A stretch of 20,335 nucleotides of DNA from a virus. Position numbers and translations under genes: made by a program. The stretch is taken from positions 1 to 20,335 of the IMG/VR virus record IMGVR_UViG_3300045919_000001; one strand, written 5' to 3'. How positions within the stretch are numbered: position 1 is the first letter of the stretch; the number at the start of each line of letters is the position of its first letter. Below are positions 2,854 through 20,293 of the stretch, in pieces. Below the pieces are notes generated by a model. It saw only the letters and a program-made list of their open reading frames with translations. It was not told where the DNA came from and did no database searches.

Positions 2854-5800
2854 TTACGCCGCACCGATGCGAGCGAATGTCTGTTGGAATAATACTGTAG
2901 TTGAATTGGTTGGGGTAGAGGTGAACGTATAATTACCTGAGCCTTCGGTGTAATCACCTGAGCTTAATTCTACGCCATTAGCAAATAGGTCAAAAGCTCC
3001 CGATGTTAATGGGAAACTATATGTTGCAATTCCGCTGGCTGTAAAAGCCACCACGTTGACAGGTGTCCCCACTGGAGTAGTGAGGTTGCTCATGGCGAAT
3101 TGCAGCACAGTTAATTTACCATCAGCGTTTGAAGGTAAGCCCGTCAGCGTATTGCCGACGATGTTGTAATCTTGATCATTTACAACCGTGCCATTCATAA
3201 ACAACCATTCCGAACCTGAGTTGAATTGCCATGTTGTCGGCGCGTAGCTACTTGCTGCGACTAAATCAGCCGTGTACCTGCTCAATACTGGGTACGAAGC
3301 TGACACCGCACGATAACGGTAAATTACATTCCCAGCGGTAGCGGTCACCGCTGCCGTGAATGTTATTGTTCGCGCCGTGTAATTCACACTTGCTACCGTG
3401 TATTGTGTGGGTGAACCTGTATTTGCAAATGTTAGAATATCCCCAGCGTTGATAGTTTGCCATGGCATGGAGGCAATGTTCCACGTAATCGTTGGAGTGG
3501 CTACGCTCAAAACTGTGATGTTCAATGTTTCGTAAAATACCGCACTCGATACCGCACGGAATGAATCACATTGCAAAATATCCCCAGCCGTCGCCCCGAC
3601 AGACAAAGTGAAGGTCGTCGATGTTTCGCTGTATTCAGATTTGTCTAGCAAACATCCGTTTTGATAAATAAGAGATTGTCCAACAATCCACCCCGCCGCC
3701 CTAGCCGTGGGAGTGAATACCGTTTGACCACTCGTAGCCGTACCCATCCAGTCAGTGAAGTAAAAATTATCTGACTGTGTAAACCCGACAACTCTACCGT
3801 AAATATCAATCGTGATTTGAGCTGGCGTACCCGTGTAGGTAGAAGCCCCGCCAAAGTTTAGGAAAGGGTCAAGACTTGCGACGATCTTGCCGTCGGTTGT
3901 ATTGACTATTTTCACTTGTCCCGTTCCGACAGTAGTCGTGCCTGATTGAATCACTTGCCCTGTAGGGTAATCTAAGTTAATCACATTAGTCCCGTCTTGC
4001 AGGGCTTGCCAGATGGTTGGGTTGAACTTGATAACACTAGTAGGTACGAAAGCCCCAGAGCCACCCGCAAACGCTGCGTAATCGCTATCAAACGAGAACT
4101 TTCTACCCGTCCTATTAGAGTAAACCAAATAAATCACCGTGCCGAACGCAGGAGAGGCTAAATACCACTTATAGTCAGCCACGTTTAACGATGCCGAGCT
4201 TGATGATTGATTTGCTAATCCGTAGTAAGTCTTCCCACGTGGGTTAAGACTAAATCCCGTCCCTACCAAATCATCCGCGTAAGCCACTGATAAATACTGA
4301 TCGGTGAATTGAAATGTAGTCGGTCGCCAATTAAACACACTAGAAGCTGGTGATAAATTACTTTTCCCCAAATTATTAACCATGCGTGAAAAGAAGTACC
4401 AGTTACCCGCTGGAATGTTAAACAATCCCACCGACGGCATAGCTACGCCATGTCCGTATGGGTCGCCACTTGCGTTTATTGCCGTCGTACCAGCAAAGAT
4501 GCGCTGTGCGTCGGTAGGGCTAGCGTAGGCTGAATACCACAACTCAGCATACTGAGTAATCCCCGCGCTTGAGCTAGTGATGTCAACATAGAAAGCAGGG
4601 TTTGAAATCGTTGGCAGCGATGTTGAAATAGTTGGAGCGTACATCGTGCCGAATGCAATCGGGTTAGCAAATCCAGTGTTTGGGGAAAGCTGAAACTCCA
4701 CCACGCTCACATCATCATAAACGCTTGGGTTGTATTCGTGGAGCGTTAATCCTACTGAGATTTGCCCCGTGTCGCTGATTCTTTGCGTGACTTTCATCAC
4801 ACGGAAAAACTTTAAACTCCAGCCGTAATTCGTATTTGTAACCGTAACGATGTTGCCTGCTTCGAGTTGTAATCCAGTGAAATCTACTTCACAACTAATC
4901 TGCAAATCCTCACGTCCTGCCTTCAACATTCGGTTCGCAAGGTACTGAGCTTGGATGTTGTTGTTGCATAACATCAAGCTAACAGATTGCTTATTGATAG
5001 GCTCATTGGGGTACATCAACACGGGATTGAGTACGGCTAAATCAAAGTTAGCTGTGCTGAAATTATCCTGCGTTGTCACGTCTGGGAATTTGGTTTCAAT
5101 TTGATTGAACGAACTGGACAGGTCGAATGGTGAAATGCTCAAGCCTGAAATGATGTTTGAATCATTTAGGTCTAATGCTATGTCACTCGCCACATAACCG
5201 CTTGCTACATAACCAGTGGTCACATATCTCGCAGGCACAACGCCAGTTTGAACCACAACACCCCATTGAGATTCGACTTCGTTATACCTAACCAAACAAT
5301 CACAACAATCAGACATTGCCTGAATGTTGGTCATTATCTTTTGATTCGTATCTAGCGTCCCGTTAAACTTAAATCGAGGTTGTGAAACTGGATTACCTGC
5401 GTAATTGATATAGTTGAACAATGAGTTTGAATAGGTATTCAACGCAGTAATCGAGTAAGCATCAACCTCGCTAGGCTTCAATCCTGCCCCGTAACGAGCA
5501 GAGGTTAAGTAATCCTGAATGCAATCACCCGCTGAATCTCGCGGGTTAATAACTTGGAAGTTAGTCTTTTGCAGACTCGTTAAATTGCGTGATTGGCTGT
5601 ATTGCAAATGCACAATCGCAAATGCACAGTTCGGCATGTTCTTTGAGCTATCCCACTGGTAGGTTAGGATAGGATTACTCATCACAGCAATGGCTGATTG
5701 TGAATTATTGGTTGGGAGATTTGAGCCATTGCGGTATAGGTAAATGTCCATGTACCCAGTGATGTCCTGAATCTGCCCTGTCGATTCGTCAAGTAGTCCC

Positions 5801-6198
5801 GTGACTGAATATCCGTTCGCACCGAATACGACCTTTTTACCAGCCCAGTAGATATTACCAAAAGAGTAAATATCACCACCGCCGCCATTCTCCGAACCCG
5901 TTACCTCAGCTAATGCCAGCACCCAATATAAATGCTGATTATCGGCTGAAATGGAAAGGTCAACAAGCGTCCCACCAATATACGCAGAACCGTAAAGGAC
6001 GGGTAGTTTGTTGTTGCCTGCTGGCGGGACTTGCTGACGATTGCCAGGGTTTTGTTGCCCCGCTGCACTACCGCCGTTAGGCATGTCGGGCGCGAATACC
6101 TGAGCAATCACCGCTGAGATCAGCATGTTAATAGCAAAGGCTGCGACTGCCTGCGCTGCGGCTGTTTCAAATATCGCTGCTGCTATCACCATTCCCAT
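2854..6198 (-). CDS. gpJ-like central tail tip / host-specificity protein (1114 aa)
   Basis: This large tip protein probably closes the tail and carries receptor-contact domains. The N-terminus has a hydrophobic Ala-rich helix (about residues 5-35). LPVLYGSAYIGGTLVD follows, the usual opening of gpJ/megatron-type proteins. Next come CIQDYLTSARYGAGL near residue 230 and the phage tail_3-like stretch at about 400-495 (AQYLANRMLKAGREDL, then GNIVTVTNTNYGWSLKFFRV). A fibronectin-III-like segment lies at about 505-630 (FFSRMVNNLGKSNLSPAS). The C-terminal third holds at least three related modules with an NG...DY/EY signature near residues 851, 1005 and 1078. Length fits the family. The start lies two bases from the stop of the GNAT-like gene. 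Confidence 0.88.
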   Translation of the reverse strand: MGMVIAAAIFETAAAQAVAAFAINMLISAVIAQVFAPDMPNGGSAAGQQNPGNRQQVPPAGNNKLPVLYGSAYIGGTLVDLSISADNQHLYWVLALAEVTGSENGGGGDIYSFGNIYWAGKKVVFGANGYSVTGLLDESTGQIQDITGYMDIYLYRNGSNLPTNNSQSAIAVMSNPILTYQWDSSKNMPNCAFAIVHLQYSQSRNLTSLQKTNFQVINPRDSAGDCIQDYLTSARYGAGLKPSEVDAYSITALNTYSNSLFNYINYAGNPVSQPRFKFNGTLDTNQKIMTNIQAMSDCCDCLVRYNEVESQWGVVVQTGVVPARYVTTGYVASGYVASDIALDLNDSNIISGLSISPFDLSSSFNQIETKFPDVTTQDNFSTANFDLAVLNPVLMYPNEPINKQSVSLMLCNNNIQAQYLANRMLKAGREDLQISCEVDFTGLQLEAGNIVTVTNTNYGWSLKFFRVMKVTQRISDTGQISVGLTLHEYNPSVYDDVSVVEFQLSPNTGFANPIAFGTMYAPTISTSLPTISNPAFYVDITSSSAGITQYAELWYSAYASPTDAQRIFAGTTAINASGDPYGHGVAMPSVGLFNIPAGNWYFFSRMVNNLGKSNLSPASSVFNWRPTTFQFTDQYLSVAYADDLVGTGFSLNPRGKTYYGLANQSSSSASLNVADYKWYLASPAFGTVIYLVYSNRTGRKFSFDSDYAAFAGGSGAFVPTSVIKFNPTIWQALQDGTNVINLDYPTGQVIQSGTTTVGTGQVKIVNTTDGKIVASLDPFLNFGGASTYTGTPAQITIDIYGRVVGFTQSDNFYFTDWMGTATSGQTVFTPTARAAGWIVGQSLIYQNGCLLDKSEYSETSTTFTLSVGATAGDILQCDSFRAVSSAVFYETLNITVLSVATPTITWNIASMPWQTINAGDILTFANTGSPTQYTVASVNYTARTITFTAAVTATAGNVIYRYRAVSASYPVLSRYTADLVAASSYAPTTWQFNSGSEWLFMNGTVVNDQDYNIVGNTLTGLPSNADGKLTVLQFAMSNLTTPVGTPVNVVAFTASGIATYSFPLTSGAFDLFANGVELSSGDYTEGSGNYTFTSTPTNSTTVLFQQTFARIGAA

Positions 6199-12825: not shown

Positions 12826-13415
12826 CACATCACCAAAGGTTTGTAGGGGCGAAGCAAAGCATCAATACCGTAAGGTATCTTGTTCAAACTACCCGTTACC
12901 GTGTCGCTCCTGTTGTTGTACAAGTGAGTGAGTAAAAGCAGCCCAGCTTGTTTTATAACGGGGTATTTCGCCATTACGTTTGCAGTTTGGCTATACGTCA
13001 CCACTACTGGGCTGACAACGCCTGCATTGATGTTTGTCGGCAATGTAGCTACTACCTTAAACGCTGTTGCATCGTAAAAATAATTACCACCAGCGAGCGT
13101 TGTGAGTGTGTTCGTTAAGTCGTAAAACTCCACCGCCGAAACAGTTGCTTGAACTGTTGATGGTGGTAGGCTCAATGCAATCTGAGTACCTGATACATTC
13201 GCGGAAAAATAAGCCTTGAACGTCTGAGCAAATATCGCCATGCCGAGATAATCTTCAATTGCAAAGCGTGTTGCCAGCTCAAGGTTCTGCAACATTTCAT
13301 ACTGCGAATTATCCTCAAACAAATTAAGCTGATTCTGAACCTCAGTCGCACTGAGCCAAGGGGTCGTGACATCACGAACTGTTTGATCAATGCGCTGTGG
13401 GCTGAATGTTTGCAT
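12825..13415 (-). CDS. Head-tail connector, phiE125 gp8 / HK97 gp6-like (196 aa)
   Basis: This connector ring protein probably binds under the portal. The C-terminal signature YPVIKQAGLLLLTHLYNNRS followed by LNKIPYGIDALLRPYK matches the phiE125 gp8-type family and its usual 'iP.gv..LL.PYr' ending. The N-terminal part is helical (EDNSQYEMLQNLELATRFAI), followed by beta strands. Length matches the family. The ATG overlaps the stop of the second capsid gene (TAATG), which links its translation to that gene. This is a confident call from motif plus position. Confidence 0.88.
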   Translation of the reverse strand: MQTFSPQRIDQTVRDVTTPWLSATEVQNQLNLFEDNSQYEMLQNLELATRFAIEDYLGMAIFAQTFKAYFSANVSGTQIALSLPPSTVQATVSAVEFYDLTNTLTTLAGGNYFYDATAFKVVATLPTNINAGVVSPVVVTYSQTANVMAKYPVIKQAGLLLLTHLYNNRSDTVTGSLNKIPYGIDALLRPYKPLVM

Positions 13416-14428
13416 TAGAATGTCAATCGTGCGCCAGCAAAGACATCACGAACACTCGTCGCCACGCGCTTTTCAGCGAACAGTGTCAAGAAGCCCGGTT
13501 GCGTTTGGTCAAAACGCTGAATCGTCATCTCCTCAGAATCAACAATCGTCATAAAGCTATCCCAACAAGCCAAATACACAGGGAATTTAGTCGAACCCTG
13601 CAAATCCAAATAAGGATTCGGCACAACTGGCAAGCCAAACATAAACGCTAAAGCTCCACCGTCACCGTCACCCGCTTCAAAGAAAAAAGGCGCGCCGCCA
13701 GTTGATTTCAATTTGCGAATCGCGCTGATAGTGGTTGGATGAATCATCCATGCAGTGGTTGGCATATTCCAGTAAACCGCTGGCAGTGCCGATGCCAATG
13801 ACACTAAATCATCGTATGCAATCGCTGCACCTGCTTGAGTTACTGTCGCAATTGAATGTAGCCCGTTTGTTATGGCTGAACCACTTGAGCCATACGCAGC
13901 ACTTGCCGCGCTTGGGTAGAAGTTCAATCCACGCAAGCCTGCTGTACCGCCTGAGGTCGTTGTAACTGACCCCGCTTGGTCATTATTCGAAACACAGGAT
14001 TGACCCTCAATCGCGCTGAACTCCAACGCCAAATCTGAAACAAGCGTTTCTTCTAGTCCGCTAATATCAGCGAGCGCAGATGTTCGAATCGGCAATTGAG
14101 CCGTGATTGCGCGCATAGGTAATTGCCAAATCGCCGAAGCCGTAGAAGGTGTGCCAGCGTTGGGCGTGAAGGTGTAGCCGAATGGGTTTGCTTGGTCTGC
14201 TGCATTGCCTACCTTGGCAACGAACAAAGCATCTGAACCATCCGTTAGAATTTGTCGTGCGCCTTGACGCATCGGATTGGCATGACGTAGTGCTGCAAAG
14301 ACACTGTCAGGTTGCACTTTACCGCCAACGCCTGACCCGCCACCTGTGAGCGTTGCCGCTTCCTTTAGGTTTGCCGTAGCCTTGCCGTCAACGAGTGCCG
14401 TTTTTATTGCTTCTAAAATTTTACTCAT
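13415..14428 (-). CDS. Second HK97-fold capsid protein, lacking the delta domain (337 aa)
   Basis: This is a paralogue of the upstream capsid protein. A hand alignment of residues 113-169 with residues 203-259 of that protein gives 40 identities in 57. Further shared blocks are PIRTSALADI, TNGLHSIAT and FDQTxPG...EKR..TS. The opening MSK.ILEAI is also shared, but the ~110-residue coiled-coil scaffold is replaced by about 20 residues. The frame is intact and conserved, so it is unlikely to be a recent decaying copy. It may be a minor capsid component, a vertex or special capsomer, or the main shell protein with the longer one as helper. Sequence alone cannot decide. Confidence 0.88.
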   Translation of the reverse strand: MSKILEAIKTALVDGKATANLKEAATLTGGGSGVGGKVQPDSVFAALRHANPMRQGARQILTDGSDALFVAKVGNAADQANPFGYTFTPNAGTPSTASAIWQLPMRAITAQLPIRTSALADISGLEETLVSDLALEFSAIEGQSCVSNNDQAGSVTTTSGGTAGLRGLNFYPSAASAAYGSSGSAITNGLHSIATVTQAGAAIAYDDLVSLASALPAVYWNMPTTAWMIHPTTISAIRKLKSTGGAPFFFEAGDGDGGALAFMFGLPVVPNPYLDLQGSTKFPVYLACWDSFMTIVDSEEMTIQRFDQTQPGFLTLFAEKRVATSVRDVFAGARLTF

Positions 14429-14454
14429 AGCGTTACTCCAAATAAGTTTAGAGA

Positions 14455-14472
14455 GAGGGGCTTGCGCCCCCC
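14455..14472 (-). promoter_or_regulatory. GC-rich hairpin with GCAA tetraloop between the capsid genes
   Basis: The transcript can fold GGGGGGC-GCAA-GCCCCUC, a seven-pair stem (one G-U pair) closed by a GNRA loop. It lies just after the first capsid stop. A CUCUCU stretch follows instead of a U run, so it is not a standard intrinsic terminator. It could affect mRNA stability or the ratio of the two capsid proteins. Confidence 0.5.
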
Positions 14473-14478
14473 GCGCTA

Positions 14479-15855
14479 TTAGTTCGCTGCTGTTACTGTT
14501 GAGCGATAACGCACAATCGCGTTAGGGTCGATGATTGAGGTACACAAACGCTTTTCACCGTAGAACGTGATAGAGCCTGGCAATGTTTGGTCGAAACGCT
14601 GCATCACCATGCTCAAACGGTCAACGATGCCGTGTGCGCGATTCCAGTCACCGAAGTACATCGGATATTTAGGAATTGCACCAGCGGCAGCCGTAGTGCC
14701 TTGGCTTGGGTTGTCGAGATACTTATTGACCACCACATCAAAGCCGCATAGCTGTCCAATGATACCGTCTGAACGTGACAAGCCGTCAACGTAGATAGGG
14801 CGACCGTTACTATCAACCAAGCCACGAATACCCTGCAACAAAATAGGGTTAATCATAAACTTCGCCGAGCTAGTCCAGTATTGCTGTGGCAAGCTGTAAA
14901 TCAAGTTGATAACGTCTTTGTACGTGATTCCGTTCGCACCGACTGTATTGACGTTTGAGGTCAATTGGTCGAGCGTTGCAATGCTGTGCAAACCGTTAGT
15001 CGCTGCTGTACCGCTAGAGCCGAATGCTGGAACACTTACCAACCCGCCTGTGTAGGTAGCATTTGCGCCGCCGTATTGGTTCAATCCGCGTAAGCCAGAT
15101 GTCGCACCTGTCGCTGTAGTGGTGGAGCCTGATTGGTCGTTGTTCGATACCATCGACTGTGCCTCAGCTTGTGAAAATTCAGCAAGCATGTCAGATACCA
15201 CGTTAGATTCTAAACCATCAATGTCAGCCAAAGCAGACGTGCGGATCGGGAACTGTACGTTCAAGTCAGACATCGTCAATTGCCAGATTACAGATGCTTC
15301 AGTCGTCGCCGCGCCGTTGTTTTGGATTGGATAGCCCCAAGCTGCACCTGCGTTACCTGTCTTAGTGCGGAACTGGTAAGTGCTACCAGCCGTTGACAAA
15401 GAACGTGACATGCCGCGCATCGGATTAGCCAAACGCAAAGCCACAAACAACGGGTCGTATTCGGTACGTCCACCGATACCATCGCCTGAGCCTGTAAATC
15501 CAGCGGCTTCATTCAAAAACGCAAAGTGTTGAGCTTCATCTTCGAAGAGTTTGATCTCTTTTTGCAAACGACCACCATCTTTAACGAAGGCATTGATTTG
15601 CTCTTTAACCATCTTGTTTACTTCGCCGCGCAGGGTCTTTTCAGGCTTGATGAAAGCGGGAACTTGAACTTGTGCGATTTTCGCCTCAAGTGCAATCAGC
15701 TTGTCTGTGATGGTGTTGGAGATTTCTTCAACCTTGGCGAGCGTTTCAACCTTTGCGGCTTCTACGCTTGCAGCGGTTTCAGTTTTGATGGTGACAATTT
15801 CAGCAACTTGCTTCGCTTCGATTTTGTCAATAGCTTCGAGGATTTCTTTACTCAT
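14479..15855 (-). CDS. Major capsid protein, HK97 fold with N-terminal delta-like domain (458 aa)
   Basis: This is the likely shell protein. Residues 1-65 are a Glu/Lys/Ala-rich coiled coil (KIEAKQVAEIVTIKTETAAS), and the scaffold-like region extends to about 110. Capsid-fold motifs follow: LFVALRLANPMRG, QFPIRTSALADIDGLE, LRGLNQYG and C-terminal FDQTLPGSITFYGEKR. The protease upstream probably removes the N-terminal domain as in HK97, but the cleavage site is not visible. AAAGGAG precedes the ATG. A 74-base leader with two small hairpins separates it from the protease gene. Length is slightly above HK97 gp5 (385 aa). Confidence 0.93.
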   Translation of the reverse strand: MSKEILEAIDKIEAKQVAEIVTIKTETAASVEAAKVETLAKVEEISNTITDKLIALEAKIAQVQVPAFIKPEKTLRGEVNKMVKEQINAFVKDGGRLQKEIKLFEDEAQHFAFLNEAAGFTGSGDGIGGRTEYDPLFVALRLANPMRGMSRSLSTAGSTYQFRTKTGNAGAAWGYPIQNNGAATTEASVIWQLTMSDLNVQFPIRTSALADIDGLESNVVSDMLAEFSQAEAQSMVSNNDQSGSTTTATGATSGLRGLNQYGGANATYTGGLVSVPAFGSSGTAATNGLHSIATLDQLTSNVNTVGANGITYKDVINLIYSLPQQYWTSSAKFMINPILLQGIRGLVDSNGRPIYVDGLSRSDGIIGQLCGFDVVVNKYLDNPSQGTTAAAGAIPKYPMYFGDWNRAHGIVDRLSMVMQRFDQTLPGSITFYGEKRLCTSIIDPNAIVRYRSTVTAAN

Positions 15856-15929: not shown

Positions 15930-16691
15930 TTATACTCTTTGTTGCAACTCCTTGAGCAAAATACGCTCGTTTAGTGCTTGTAAAATTGCTGCTTCGACTA
16001 CCGCATCAGAATCACTCCGAGGTGGCGTTTTATTTTGAGCCTCTATGATGCGCTTCAAAATTGAAGATGCGGTAGTCGCACTCTTCTTGGATATGCCTGC
16101 ATCTCGCAAACACTTCTCAATGTTTCGCAAATCGGCTTTACCGTCTGCGTTAAAAAATTCTAATTGACTGATTTCAGCGGCTGGATTGTTTGGGTACATC
16201 ACCACGGACACTTCACGCAAGCCGCCTTTAGTAATCTGGAAAAATCCTTCTTCGTCATCTTCTTTAAGAGGATTGCCAAGGGCATCAACCATGCAGGCTT
16301 CGTCGGCATACGCGCCAACAGACACACCGCCGAACATGTTGGGCGATTCCTTCAAAACTTTGTAGAGGTCTGAACCTGTATTGGTATTGGTGAATAAACG
16401 ACCCGATGCGCTCATTCCTTCATCGTCAAATGTGAGTTCGTCCCATTGACCGACTGGCATACCTAAATCATTGTGATTTAAAAACATCGGCAAGGGCTTG
16501 CCACTTGCTGCGAATTCGGCTGCCCAACTTGCGAAGCCTTCTGGCTTGTAGTTGAATTTTCGCCCGTCTGCACCTTCGCGCGCTCCCCATGTCGTAACTC
16601 GCGCTTCAATCTTTCCTGTGGGGGTCGTCGATTCGTCCGTCTGTTGACCGACTGTCAATTTGGCTTCGCATACGAGCGTGATATTCTTCAT
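15930..16691 (-). CDS. Prohead protease, HK97 gp4-like, with C-terminal extension (253 aa)
   Basis: This maturation protease probably cleaves the capsid delta domain and itself. Candidate catalytic residues are H73 in LPMFLNHN and S124 in GGVSVGAY, about 51 residues later; E160/S162 in LREVSVVMYPNN could complete the site. The PVGQWDELTFDDEGMSASGR block is also typical of S78-like proteases. The core ends near 180. Residues 180-253 form a helical charged extension (DLRNIEKCLRDAGISKKSAT) similar to the tails of other prohead proteases. An in-frame stop lies immediately before the ATG at 16691, and a GAGGG site lies eight bases upstream. The gene is between portal and capsid, as in HK97. Confidence 0.9.
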   Translation of the reverse strand: MKNITLVCEAKLTVGQQTDESTTPTGKIEARVTTWGAREGADGRKFNYKPEGFASWAAEFAASGKPLPMFLNHNDLGMPVGQWDELTFDDEGMSASGRLFTNTNTGSDLYKVLKESPNMFGGVSVGAYADEACMVDALGNPLKEDDEEGFFQITKGGLREVSVVMYPNNPAAEISQLEFFNADGKADLRNIEKCLRDAGISKKSATTASSILKRIIEAQNKTPPRSDSDAVVEAAILQALNERILLKELQQRV

Positions 16692-16808: not shown

Positions 16809-18191
16809 TCATTTTCCAATGTTCATCTTCTTGGTTTGACTTCCACCGCCGCCGCCCGTGTCCTGTGGCGAAGTTCCACCTATTGGCTCGGCTGGTTTAG
16901 GGTCTTTTATCTCGTCACCGCCTTCAATGTTTCCAAGTCCAAGATGCTGGCGAGCTTCGTTTGGCGTTAATATCCCAGCACCCACCCCAGCAACAGCATA
17001 ATTCATCTGGTCAAGTGGCGCGCCCTTGATAAAGTCGGCTGTGTAAAATTCAACCTTCAAATTCGGGTAGCCTTGAAATAATTGAACATTAAGATTCTGC
17101 TGAACATTCACGCAGGTTGGGTACATGATGGATTTGTAAAACTCATCAAGTACGGTTTGCGAGTTGTTGAATTTTTCACCAGGCAAGCCAATCATCAAAG
17201 GAGGAATACCAAACAACCCACAAATGCGGCGCATGGTCTGTTCTTTTAACTTCGCTGCGTCAGCATCTTGCAGGGTAAGCATATTCACTGGCAGGTACTT
17301 CAATCCGTTATCAAGCAACATGCCTTGACCCGGCTTCGATAAGTCTGATTCCTTCGAATTGGACATTTTCGCCCATGCTTCTTTTAAGCGTTTAGCCAAT
17401 TCCTCATATTTACCAGCGGGTACGACCTGTTCTGTCATAAATACGCCAGAAGGCTTCGCGCCGTTCTGCATTACATAATTCGCGTATAGGTCAATGTCTT
17501 GGTCGAGGGCGATTAGCTCCGCTGCGAGTATGGCTTTGTTAAATCCACCCACACCCTGCCAGCCTGCTTCTTTTGTGTGCATGACTTGGTAGTGTGCAAG
17601 GTCTGCATTTTTGGCAAACCCATACGTGGAAGTTGAAAGCCGATACGAAGGGTAGCGCGTAGAGCTAACTTGCGTTGTGATCAGCGTAGAATCGAGCGCA
17701 TACATCTCAATAGGGGTTTGTGTAGGGTCATCCTGATTCTTGCGCCAGAACAGCGTAAACGCTTCCCCTGATAAGTCCATCCACATGCACCACTGATACC
17801 AGAACTCATATTGTGTCTGGAAGTTGTTGGGATTTCGCAAAAGTGATAAAACTTGCTTTGCTTTCGCCGCGTCACGCTTGCCTATCTTTGCCGCGTCCTT
17901 AACTGCATCGACATACGTCCCATCATCCAATAGGCACATGACGTTAATCGGTAGTTGAGAGAGTGCGCGAGCTTTAGTGCCGACACAGGACATAACCGTA
18001 CTGTTTTTGGTCAGCATCGTCATATCGACGGCGCGACCAGCTTCTGTAGTCCCCGAAGTGGTTACATATAGGAGTTGCTGACTTTGTCGGTTGCCATTTG
18101 CGGCAATGACGTTATTTCCAAGGGTAGCCTGTCCGAATAAACTATTAGATTCGTTCGTTTTTTTCTTGCTGAAAATGTCAAAAATTCCCAT
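16809..18191 (-). CDS. Portal protein, HK97 family (460 aa)
   Basis: This protein forms the dodecameric DNA channel at one vertex. It has the family motifs MRRICGLFGIPPLMIG (about 320-335) and GILTPNEARQHLGLG (about 402-416). An N-terminal part (VMSCVGTKARALSQLPINVM) and WYQWCMWMDLSGEAFTLFWR are also typical. The C-terminus is Gly/Lys-rich and disordered-looking. AGGTGA precedes the ATG, and the gene starts 39 bases after the large terminase. Length is in the usual range. The adjacent terminase and protease genes confirm the role. Confidence 0.93.
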   Translation of the reverse strand: MGIFDIFSKKKTNESNSLFGQATLGNNVIAANGNRQSQQLLYVTTSGTTEAGRAVDMTMLTKNSTVMSCVGTKARALSQLPINVMCLLDDGTYVDAVKDAAKIGKRDAAKAKQVLSLLRNPNNFQTQYEFWYQWCMWMDLSGEAFTLFWRKNQDDPTQTPIEMYALDSTLITTQVSSTRYPSYRLSTSTYGFAKNADLAHYQVMHTKEAGWQGVGGFNKAILAAELIALDQDIDLYANYVMQNGAKPSGVFMTEQVVPAGKYEELAKRLKEAWAKMSNSKESDLSKPGQGMLLDNGLKYLPVNMLTLQDADAAKLKEQTMRRICGLFGIPPLMIGLPGEKFNNSQTVLDEFYKSIMYPTCVNVQQNLNVQLFQGYPNLKVEFYTADFIKGAPLDQMNYAVAGVGAGILTPNEARQHLGLGNIEGGDEIKDPKPAEPIGGTSPQDTGGGGGSQTKKMNIGK

Positions 18192-18230: not shown

Positions 18231-19892
18231 CTAAAATACACCGAAAGTAAAGCCGCCTGATTCATAAGGGTTATCAAGTGAGCAATGAGCCGCGATTATC
18301 ATAGCGATAATGCCATCAACCTTAGCAGACTTGTCAGCTTCATTCTTTCGCACCTTGATATTCCCGTTCACATCTTCGTAAACTTCGCAGTTCCCAAGCT
18401 GCCAGCCGACAAACGGATTACCGTCGTGTTTAATCTGTCCACCCATTATCATCTTTTCGACCAGTTTTGCAGGCTGCGACATAACTGCCATGCCCTGCCC
18501 TACCTTTTTGACGGGTATGCCTTCATCATGCAGCCTAGCCACGATAGACGCTGCATTATAGGCATCATAGCCAACTTCTTTTACATCATAAATCCCGCAT
18601 TGTGACTTTATGTACTCGCTGATTTCGCGGTCATCCATTACGTTACCCTCAGTCAATTTCAATATGCCTGAATTGATTGCAACGCGGAATATGTCTTGGT
18701 AATGTTTTGGGATTAACTCATACCCAGCTTCGGGAAGGAAGAACTGGAACTCAACATCGTAGTCTATTTCCCCGTAACGTTTAAGCGTACAGACTGCGTT
18801 CAAATCTCGCGTTGCTGCCAAGTCAAAGCCTATAAACACCGCTTCGGGTTCTTCTTCGCGTTTTGTAATAAGTGATTTGTCCCAATAAGCCCGATCTAAC
18901 CAAGCGGTATTGGCTGAAACGTAGATATTGAGTGATTTACAGAGAAAGTCATTAAGTGCAGCTGGCTTATGCTTTGCCTCTTCTGCCCGTTGTTCAATGG
19001 CTGAATCAAACACCGTGATGCCGTGCATCGGGTTCGCCTTCGCCCAGCTTGCAGGGTCGCGCCAATCATCTTGTGGGTCAAGTCCGTAAAGCAATCCAAA
19101 CCACTTAGGGTTATCGGTAGCCTCGCCGTTAAGCATTGACCTGTACATCTGCATATCTTCGTGGAATTTAGTGTCTTTAGTGAAGCTGGCGGTCGTGATG
19201 TATATACGTAAAGGATTTTCACGTGCCACCATACCAGAATGCAATACCTCGATTGAATTGCGGTCAACAATCTGTGCGGCTTCGTCCACAATCACGCAGG
19301 ACGGGTTCTTGCCGTCACCCGACTTCTTGGTATCGCGGGAAAGCGCAGAGAATTTAGACTGAGAATCGCCGACCTTCTTTACTTCATACGTCAGAGCATT
19401 GAAAAGCTTCGCCGCAAATCGCGGCATGGTTTCAACAAATCCCTTGGCAGAATCGAATACGATAGTTGCCTGCTCGCGGTTGGTCGCCAAAGTATAGACT
19501 TCTGATCCAGCTTCACCGAACTGCAATTCATACAGCCCGATTACCGCTGTCAGGGTAGATTTACCAGCCTTTCTGGGTATGTATAAGATGACATCCGACA
19601 CCATGCGGACGTTACCGTCTTTCTTTGACCGAAAGCCGTAGATTGCACAAATAAACAGGATTTGAAAAGGCTCAAGCTCTACAGGTTTGCCAGCGTCTTT
19701 GCCTTTAGTGTGGACTAAATAGCCTGCAAAATCTAAAACGTGCTGCGGGAAAGCTGGGCTGAATTCCCACTTCCAAGACTTATCTTCCATCTGATCAATA
19801 AATCGCTGGCAAGCTAAGCGAACATCGTTACAGACGTTTATTTCACCCTTTACAACTTGGTGTGCATACTCTACACCTGACTGCCATTTCAT
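18231..19892 (-). CDS. terL: Terminase large subunit, HK97-like (553 aa)
   Basis: This is the packaging motor and nuclease. Walker A is PRKAGKST (106-113) and Walker B is VIVDEA (200-205), with the catalytic Glu after the Asp. The nuclease centre is marked by GFDLAATRDL (Asp357), by D443 in VGYDAYNAAS and by D526 in KVDGIIAM. The order and spacing match HK97/P27-associated large terminases. Full length, no frameshift. It overlaps the small terminase by ATGA. Packaging strategy (cos or headful) cannot be stated from these motifs. Confidence 0.95.
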   Translation of the reverse strand: MKWQSGVEYAHQVVKGEINVCNDVRLACQRFIDQMEDKSWKWEFSPAFPQHVLDFAGYLVHTKGKDAGKPVELEPFQILFICAIYGFRSKKDGNVRMVSDVILYIPRKAGKSTLTAVIGLYELQFGEAGSEVYTLATNREQATIVFDSAKGFVETMPRFAAKLFNALTYEVKKVGDSQSKFSALSRDTKKSGDGKNPSCVIVDEAAQIVDRNSIEVLHSGMVARENPLRIYITTASFTKDTKFHEDMQMYRSMLNGEATDNPKWFGLLYGLDPQDDWRDPASWAKANPMHGITVFDSAIEQRAEEAKHKPAALNDFLCKSLNIYVSANTAWLDRAYWDKSLITKREEEPEAVFIGFDLAATRDLNAVCTLKRYGEIDYDVEFQFFLPEAGYELIPKHYQDIFRVAINSGILKLTEGNVMDDREISEYIKSQCGIYDVKEVGYDAYNAASIVARLHDEGIPVKKVGQGMAVMSQPAKLVEKMIMGGQIKHDGNPFVGWQLGNCEVYEDVNGNIKVRKNEADKSAKVDGIIAMIIAAHCSLDNPYESGGFTFGVF

Positions 19893-20293
19893 TGATTTAC
19901 CCTAGTGGATGGTCCCATCATAAATTTCTCGAACTTCTCAGGCGTTGTTTGCGATGCTTTCTTTAAGCTTTTTGGTGTAAGACAAAGTTCGTTAAGTATC
20001 CCTAAAGATAATGAAGCGGCTTTCTCTCTAATCGCTACATGATGATTTCGCCCAGATACGCCATTAGGATAATCCACAACCAACCCGTTCTTTTCTATAT
20101 CTTCACAGCATTTTATATATGTTTGGATTTGATCAGCCAACATACTAACTAAAACATCGTGCGAGTGCGGACTTGCCCCGCCATCTACTAAATAAGCTTC
20201 AATCTTCGTCACAAAATCAGCCCTAGTAAAGCTTGCAAAGTCTGCAATCATGTCAGCTCTTGCCTGCCTTATTGGCTTTCCGTTGCCTTTCAT
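19889..20293 (-). CDS. terS: Terminase small subunit, P27-like (134 aa)
   Basis: This protein probably recognises viral DNA for the packaging motor. The middle and C-terminal part fit the P27 family: LADQIQTYIKCCEDIEKNGL, then YPNGVSGRNHHVAIREKAAS and LGILNELCLTPKSLKK, the last equivalent to the usual 'l..lGLtP.sR' ending. Length is typical. GAGGG lies about seven bases before the ATG. It precedes and overlaps the large terminase (ATGA), the standard order. Confidence 0.85.
   Translation of the reverse strand: MKGNGKPIRQARADMIADFASFTRADFVTKIEAYLVDGGASPHSHDVLVSMLADQIQTYIKCCEDIEKNGLVVDYPNGVSGRNHHVAIREKAASLSLGILNELCLTPKSLKKASQTTPEKFEKFMMGPSTRVNQ

Follow-up and report, generated by a model that had tools for sequence, protein, structure and literature searches.

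What is a second capsid gene for in a small tailed phage? Most tailed phages form the hexamers and the pentamers of the head from one protein. The virus record IMGVR_UViG_3300045919_000001 of IMG/VR (positions 1 to 20,335; this whole stretch of 20,335 bases, with its late genes on the minus strand, is called the window below) carries two adjacent genes for HK97-fold major capsid proteins (MCPs). The first, MCP-A, has an N-terminal coiled-coil delta region, the internal scaffold of HK97-type heads; the second, MCP-B, does not. This tandem pair is fixed throughout a large group of bacterial viruses, most of them environmental and largely from freshwater. The explanation that we prefer, with a probability of roughly 50%, is that the duplicated copies divide the work: MCP-A would provide most of the shell and the scaffold, and MCP-B would be a low-copy minor capsomer, most likely at the vertices.

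Two intact capsid genes

Both genes encode full capsid domains. PF05065 (Phage_capsid) matches MCP-A with 99.2 bits and MCP-B with 88.1 bits against a cut-off of 24.2, and the profile is covered over nearly its full length; the PHROG major head protein families are matched by both proteins alike. In BLASTP, 152 of 352 positions are identical between the two (43%; 225 bits, E 2e-74). A preliminary description of this DNA had reported two intact, adjacent HK97-fold capsid genes; its coordinates are exact, and Pfam and BLASTP agree with it. A recount of the block that it had aligned (A203-259 with B113-169) again gives 40 of 57 identical residues.

Other details of that description hold in part. 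The shared start MSK.ILEAI is present in the window, but most relatives have MSxKIIEKLDAIE in MCP-A and MNTSERILNGIK in MCP-B; since the shared start is specific to the window, a common origin of the first residues of the two proteins is unproven. The FDQT..PG..EKR block occurs in both copies, but it lies near the C-terminus and does not form the last residues. The second copy does lack the coiled-coil delta region, the size of which is about 90 residues (approximately A2-A91) rather than 110.

Structure models were built with AlphaFold2 from alignments without the row of phage P19250A, the isolate discussed below. The best match of the MCP-B model (predicted local distance difference test, pLDDT, 54) is the capsid of the Rhodobacter capsulatus gene transfer agent (GTA), with a Foldseek E-value of 5.5e-9 and a VIA Z-score of 13.2 over 218 residues; the Z-score against HK97 (1ohg) is 9.7. 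The MCP-A model (pLDDT 45) gives a partial match to the HK97 fold (Foldseek E 1.7e-5). The GTA capsid is also matched by profile (1.8e-10 for MCP-A, 1.4e-6 for MCP-B). An assembly artefact or a single gene split by a frameshift is rejected as the source of the pair: both proteins cover the entire capsid domain, and hundreds of contigs as well as an isolate carry the pair.

Conservation and age of the pair

A total of 265 loci were compared, some of which overlap on the same contig; a locus was taken as informative if it continues for 400 nt or more past MCP-A. MCP-B lies directly downstream of MCP-A in all 227 informative loci. These include 57 loci retrieved by the portal gene, which favours neither capsid gene, and 81 retrieved by MCP-A; the pair is kept in every one. 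Among the compared loci, the reading frame of MCP-B is broken in L097 only and that of MCP-A in L186 only. Relatives in which the second gene is missing or damaged had been named beforehand as an observation that would refute the earlier reading of the pair; apart from the broken frame in L097, the relatives do not show it.

Alignment-based searches of IMG/VR confirm at least 594 and at least 584 relatives for the two genes; alignments were needed to recover them, and an IMG/VR search with the MCP-B sequence alone gives no matches. In the genome collection there are five relatives, all contigs of metagenome bins, and the pair is present in all five. Contigs of the group (L193-L197) are binned with organisms as unlike as Betaproteobacteria, Alphaproteobacteria and Nitrosotalea; the bins are therefore unusable for host assignment.

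Purifying selection in relatives, put forward earlier as a check, is found for both copies. Pairwise ratios of nonsynonymous to synonymous substitution (dN/dS; Nei-Gojobori method, own script) are 0.09-0.29 for MCP-A and 0.05-0.42 for MCP-B. A maximum-likelihood tree was built from 34 pairs and five single-capsid phages (HK97, mEp235, Marinobacter AS1, Rhizobium X2_25 and NatCom_9287). All 34 MCP-A sequences fall in a single clade (support 100/99), the MCP-B sequences lie on one side (81/52), and the five single-capsid phages are outside; the exact root is unsure because the outgroup branches are long. The simplest reading of this tree is one duplication that preceded the radiation of the group. 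A recent duplication within the lineage of the window is ruled out by the same tree.

The two copies have diverged at different rates. Mean pairwise distance is 0.39 for MCP-B and 0.25 for MCP-A, so that MCP-B evolves about 1.5 times faster. In 131 locus pairs MCP-A differs by less than 10% and MCP-B by more than 30%; the converse is never seen (138 distinct pairs). Among 338 locus pairs with close portal proteins, MCP-B is far apart in 150 and MCP-A in 11. Strong divergence of MCP-B beside a conserved MCP-A suggests either faster evolution of MCP-B or its exchange between phages, and fits both alike.

What MCP-B has lost

The delta region is absent from all 143 distinct MCP-B sequences, which are 335-359 residues long with two exceptions of 416 residues. 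In MCP-A, AlphaFold predicts N-terminal helices at residues 2-62 and 75-92, with low overall confidence.

MCP-B is also shortened in three segments of the A-domain. Median lengths in MCP-A and MCP-B are 23 and 15 residues for A257-279 (ranges 22-25 and 13-16), 36 and 28 for A288-323 (35-44 and 28-29), and 34 and 25 for A377-410 (30-35 and 21-29). Each segment is shorter in every MCP-B than in every MCP-A, with no overlap of ranges (145 MCP-A and 143 MCP-B sequences). The E-loop segment is about 3 residues longer in MCP-B (median 27, compared with 24). Near-invariant residues common to both copies occupy 55 positions, and at nine positions each copy has its own fixed residue. In a search for a signature of pentamer as opposed to hexamer use, none of these nine differences is decisive. 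Identity between the A and B consensus sequences is 0.40 in the E-loop, 0.42 in the A-domain, and 0.54 and 0.53 in the spine and P parts, with region borders as read by the author from the secondary structure of the MCP-B AlphaFold2 model.

A beta-rich insert of about 70 residues (GAVVTGSITGTTLTVT...GTGTGGNGTYTV) is found in the MCP-B E-loop of three loci (L039:3900-5150, L040:1339-2589 and L249, where the MCP-B open reading frame (ORF) is at 4234) and never in MCP-A. The same module has weak matches in other ORFs of L092, L090 and L167.

The hairpin between the genes

The gap between the two genes is typically 50-70 nt. In 117 of 129 distinct gaps there is a hairpin with a T-run behind it; the corresponding shares are 1.3% among shuffled gaps and 1.6% among 75-nt background tiles from the same loci. 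The twelve gaps with no match are mostly short or interrupted, or have a longer loop or fewer Ts. Stem sequences vary widely between loci yet stay complementary (for example GGGGAAG/CTTCCCC, AAAAGGGCGAG/CTTGCCCTTTT, CAGGGGGGAGG/CCTCCCTCCTG), which points to selection on the hairpin itself. The 50-nt gap of the window folds with -21.7 kcal/mol. MCP-B likely arose as a duplicate placed beyond an older terminator of the capsid gene, among the low-copy connector genes.

In L139, an insertion of about 342 nt separates the capsid genes and holds an open frame similar to HNH endonucleases (PF01844, E 3.7e-5); phage T4 has segD between genes 23 and 24. A second hairpin-plus-T element (AGATGCG...CGCGTCT TCAATTTTC) recurs in many loci about 185 nt upstream of MCP-A (e.g. 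L003:4410-4428). It lies inside the coding sequence of the protease and may reflect conserved codons only.

A possible division of labour

HK97-type heads use one protein for pentamers and hexamers alike, and their prohead protease cuts the delta region away. In the group of the window, an HK97-type capsid gene would have been duplicated once in the ancestor, after which the copies split the work. MCP-A would form most of the shell, as hexamers, and supply the internal scaffold, later cut off by the S78 protease, which is presumed to be the enzyme that removes the delta region. MCP-B would join the MCP-A shell as a dedicated minor capsomer; because it has no delta region, it would be unable to bring its own scaffold and would depend on that of MCP-A. 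It would also be made in smaller amounts, since the hairpin that separates its gene from MCP-A is likely a leaky terminator. A low copy number and a place in the virion are both likely, and the role of minor capsomer is well supported. The position is less certain: the odds are about even that MCP-B fills the eleven pentameric vertices, which in a T=7 shell with a 38-kb genome would mean about 55 copies of MCP-B and about 360 of MCP-A.

The conserved hairpin and the loss of three A-domain loops favour such a dedicated minor capsomer over redundancy. The preliminary description had offered a mixed shell, a vertex subunit like T4 gp24 and a borrowed scaffold side by side; that interpretation is supported in part, and neither the place of MCP-B in the shell nor its presence in the virion is settled by sequence.

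Several observations weigh against the proposed division of labour. The divergence of the A-domain and E-loop exceeds that of the spine and P parts only mildly, and model confidence is low for both copies. Foldseek and VIA place the MCP-B model with ordinary capsid proteins and not specifically with vertex proteins. In the hairpin of the window the T-tract is interrupted (TCTCTCTAAAC), and the consensus terminator scan does not call it. A hairpin likewise follows the one capsid gene of HK97, mEp235 and AS1, and the annotation of HK97 and mEp235 labels it a terminator; the hairpin is thus probably ancestral and tells only on which side of it MCP-B lies. Finally, the presence of MCP-B in virions is deduced from genes and is unproven.

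The main alternative, which we consider unlikely, is a mixed shell. MCP-B would then sit within MCP-A hexamers or at several lattice positions and dilute the delta domains in the procapsid, as in two-component shells. MCP-B retains the HK97 core, the 55 near-invariant residues being spread across the N-arm, E-loop, spine and P regions, and the structural matches of its model include two-component encapsulin shells (9bje, 9bix). However, parts of the A-domain ring the capsomer axis, and within one capsomer the A-domains pack against each other; a protein that has lost three loops kept by every MCP-A is therefore expected to fit poorly in an MCP-A hexamer. The 131 locus pairs with near-identical MCP-A and divergent MCP-B, with no case of the reverse, likewise indicate that MCP-B is not tightly co-evolving with MCP-A.

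Less probable still is a role of MCP-B in assembly or as a capsomer next to the portal, with a few copies at the portal vertex, or in the procapsid only, which set size or nucleation. The hairpin places the gene with the low-copy genes, and the adaptor gene follows it directly, and the missing delta region would suit a subunit that leaves room for portal or scaffold. MCP-B is nevertheless a complete HK97-fold subunit of mature length, and we know of no phage with a capsid paralogue confined to the portal vertex, which counts against a portal-proximal place.

MCP-B could instead be a display subunit that presents variable loops or domains at the capsid exterior, its position being secondary. 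Its faster divergence, uncoupled from that of MCP-A, and the E-loop insert are what such a subunit might show, but the insert occurs in 3 MCP-B sequences and the great majority have no extra domain; this role appears improbable as the main one. It is compatible with a place at the vertices, because a vertex protein is also at the surface.

That MCP-B is a non-structural or redundant leftover of the duplication, or a decoy, is very improbable: its faster evolution and the one frameshifted copy would fit such a leftover, but MCP-B is retained across about 40% amino-acid divergence with dN/dS well below 1, and fixation and selection speak strongly against a redundant or decaying duplicate.

Comparison with known capsids

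Among the closest known systems is Methylophilaceae phage P19250A (KX815270), an isolate with a host of the LD28 clade. Its genes follow the same order as in the window (portal, protease, MCP-A, MCP-B, adaptor), and it too has a hairpin in the gap between the capsid genes. Identity between the window and P19250A gp5/gp6 is 62% from A to A, 59% from B to B and about 45% from A to B. With its A and B orthologues adjoining between protease and adaptor, the window is a member of the P19250A-type tandem capsid group. PMC8163748 cites a 2017 paper for P19250A; in the record, gp6 is annotated as a hypothetical protein only.

T4 gp23 and gp24 are HK97-fold paralogues that arose by duplication, and the second gene is just downstream of the major capsid gene, as in the window. 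The T4 order is portal 20, protease 21, scaffold 22, capsid 23, a hairpin with six T, segD and vertex protein 24. T4 gp24 fills 11 vertices (PMC9958956; PMC5694885); it has a propeptide of 10 residues, compared with 65 in gp23, and gp24-bypass mutations in gp23 are partly at A-domain sites of the intra-capsomer interface (PMC9958956). MCP-B resembles gp24 in that the N-terminal 90 or so residues of delta are gone, with about 20 residues left there. T4 differs from the group of the window in its separate scaffold protein gp22, its own protease gp21, its prolate head of about 170 kb and the lower identity of its copies (about 20%). T4-type capsid proteins are not among the best fold matches of MCP-B, which says nothing firm on relatedness. 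A duplication shared with gp23/gp24 is not claimed, since MCP-B groups with its own MCP-A in a tree built without T4 capsid proteins; the likeness would be convergent, and we do not assign the pair to the T4 lineage.

Other HK97-fold shells share single features with the window. HK97, mEp235 and Marinobacter AS1 likewise have the protease upstream of the capsid gene, and the HK97 capsid protein is fused to its scaffold (delta), but heads of the HK97 gp5 type use one capsid gene for hexamers and pentamers and have no second copy. The Rhodobacter capsulatus GTA capsid (Rcc01687) is the nearest solved relative of both copies by profile and fold; unlike the window pair, its shell is the product of a single capsid gene. 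Two-component family 2B encapsulins (Streptomyces lydicus) combine two HK97-fold proteins in one shell; these are cellular compartments with no portal, maturation protease or DNA packaging.

Searches of the literature for small tailed phages with two HK97 capsid genes, duplicated or in tandem, gave no relevant report, subscription papers being mostly outside their scope. To our knowledge, no fixed two-gene HK97 shell of ancient origin has been described in small siphophages, and proof of such a division of labour between capsid proteins comes so far mainly from the much larger phage T4. It is possible, at a little under even odds, that small siphophages have arrived independently of T4 at a strict split between hexamer subunits with scaffold and vertex subunits without it, in a ratio set by a conserved leaky terminator. 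If true, this would add to T4 a further case, apparently of independent origin, in which the copies are 43% identical, the scaffold has no gene of its own and the genome is about 38 kb long. It would offer a much simpler system for how a quasi-equivalent shell is split into two gene products, and hundreds of 'hypothetical protein' annotations would become capsid proteins. The question is directly testable, as the group is abundant in metagenomes (more than 580 loci per gene) and includes the isolate P19250A with its host.

Gene organisation of the window

The late genes are arranged in the order small and large terminase, portal, protease, MCP-A, MCP-B, adaptor, further connector and tail genes, and tape measure. 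The features bearing on the capsid pair are given in Table 1.

Table 1. Capsid genes, intergenic elements and neighbouring late genes in the window
Feature	Position	Strand	Evidence
Terminase small subunit	19889..20293	-	PF05119 E 1.4e-10
Terminase large subunit	18231..19892	-	PF20441, PF03354
Portal protein	16809..18191	-	PF04860 E 5.1e-56
Prohead (S78) protease	15930..16691	-	PF04586 E 5.1e-9; phrog_80
MCP-A, full-length HK97-fold major capsid protein with N-terminal coiled-coil delta (scaffold) region, 458 aa	14479..15855	-	ORF; PF05065 E 3.5e-28; phrog_10
Delta region of MCP-A, about residues 2-91, missing from every MCP-B	15583..15852	-	Segments A2-34 and A46-91 found in A only (145 A and 143 B sequences); helix prediction, low global model confidence
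A-B intergenic gap with hairpin and MCP-B ribosome-binding site (TTTGGAGTAACGCT-ATG)	14429..14478	-	Sequence
Hairpin GGGGGGC-GCAA-GCCCCTC, then TCTCTAAAC; terminator-like position, weak T-tract	14455..14472	-	Sequence, fold
MCP-B, HK97-fold paralogue with no delta region, 337 aa	13415..14428	-	ORF; PF05065 E 8.4e-25
Head-tail adaptor (Ad1-like), start at the MCP-B stop codon	12825..13415	-	phrog_40, phrog_442

Further along the window, a long ORF (2854-6198) stands where P19250A has its host-specificity (J) protein. Next to it, a glycine-rich ORF on the minus strand (2008-2844), which has no Pfam match, encodes a putative tail or fibre protein with long Gly runs.

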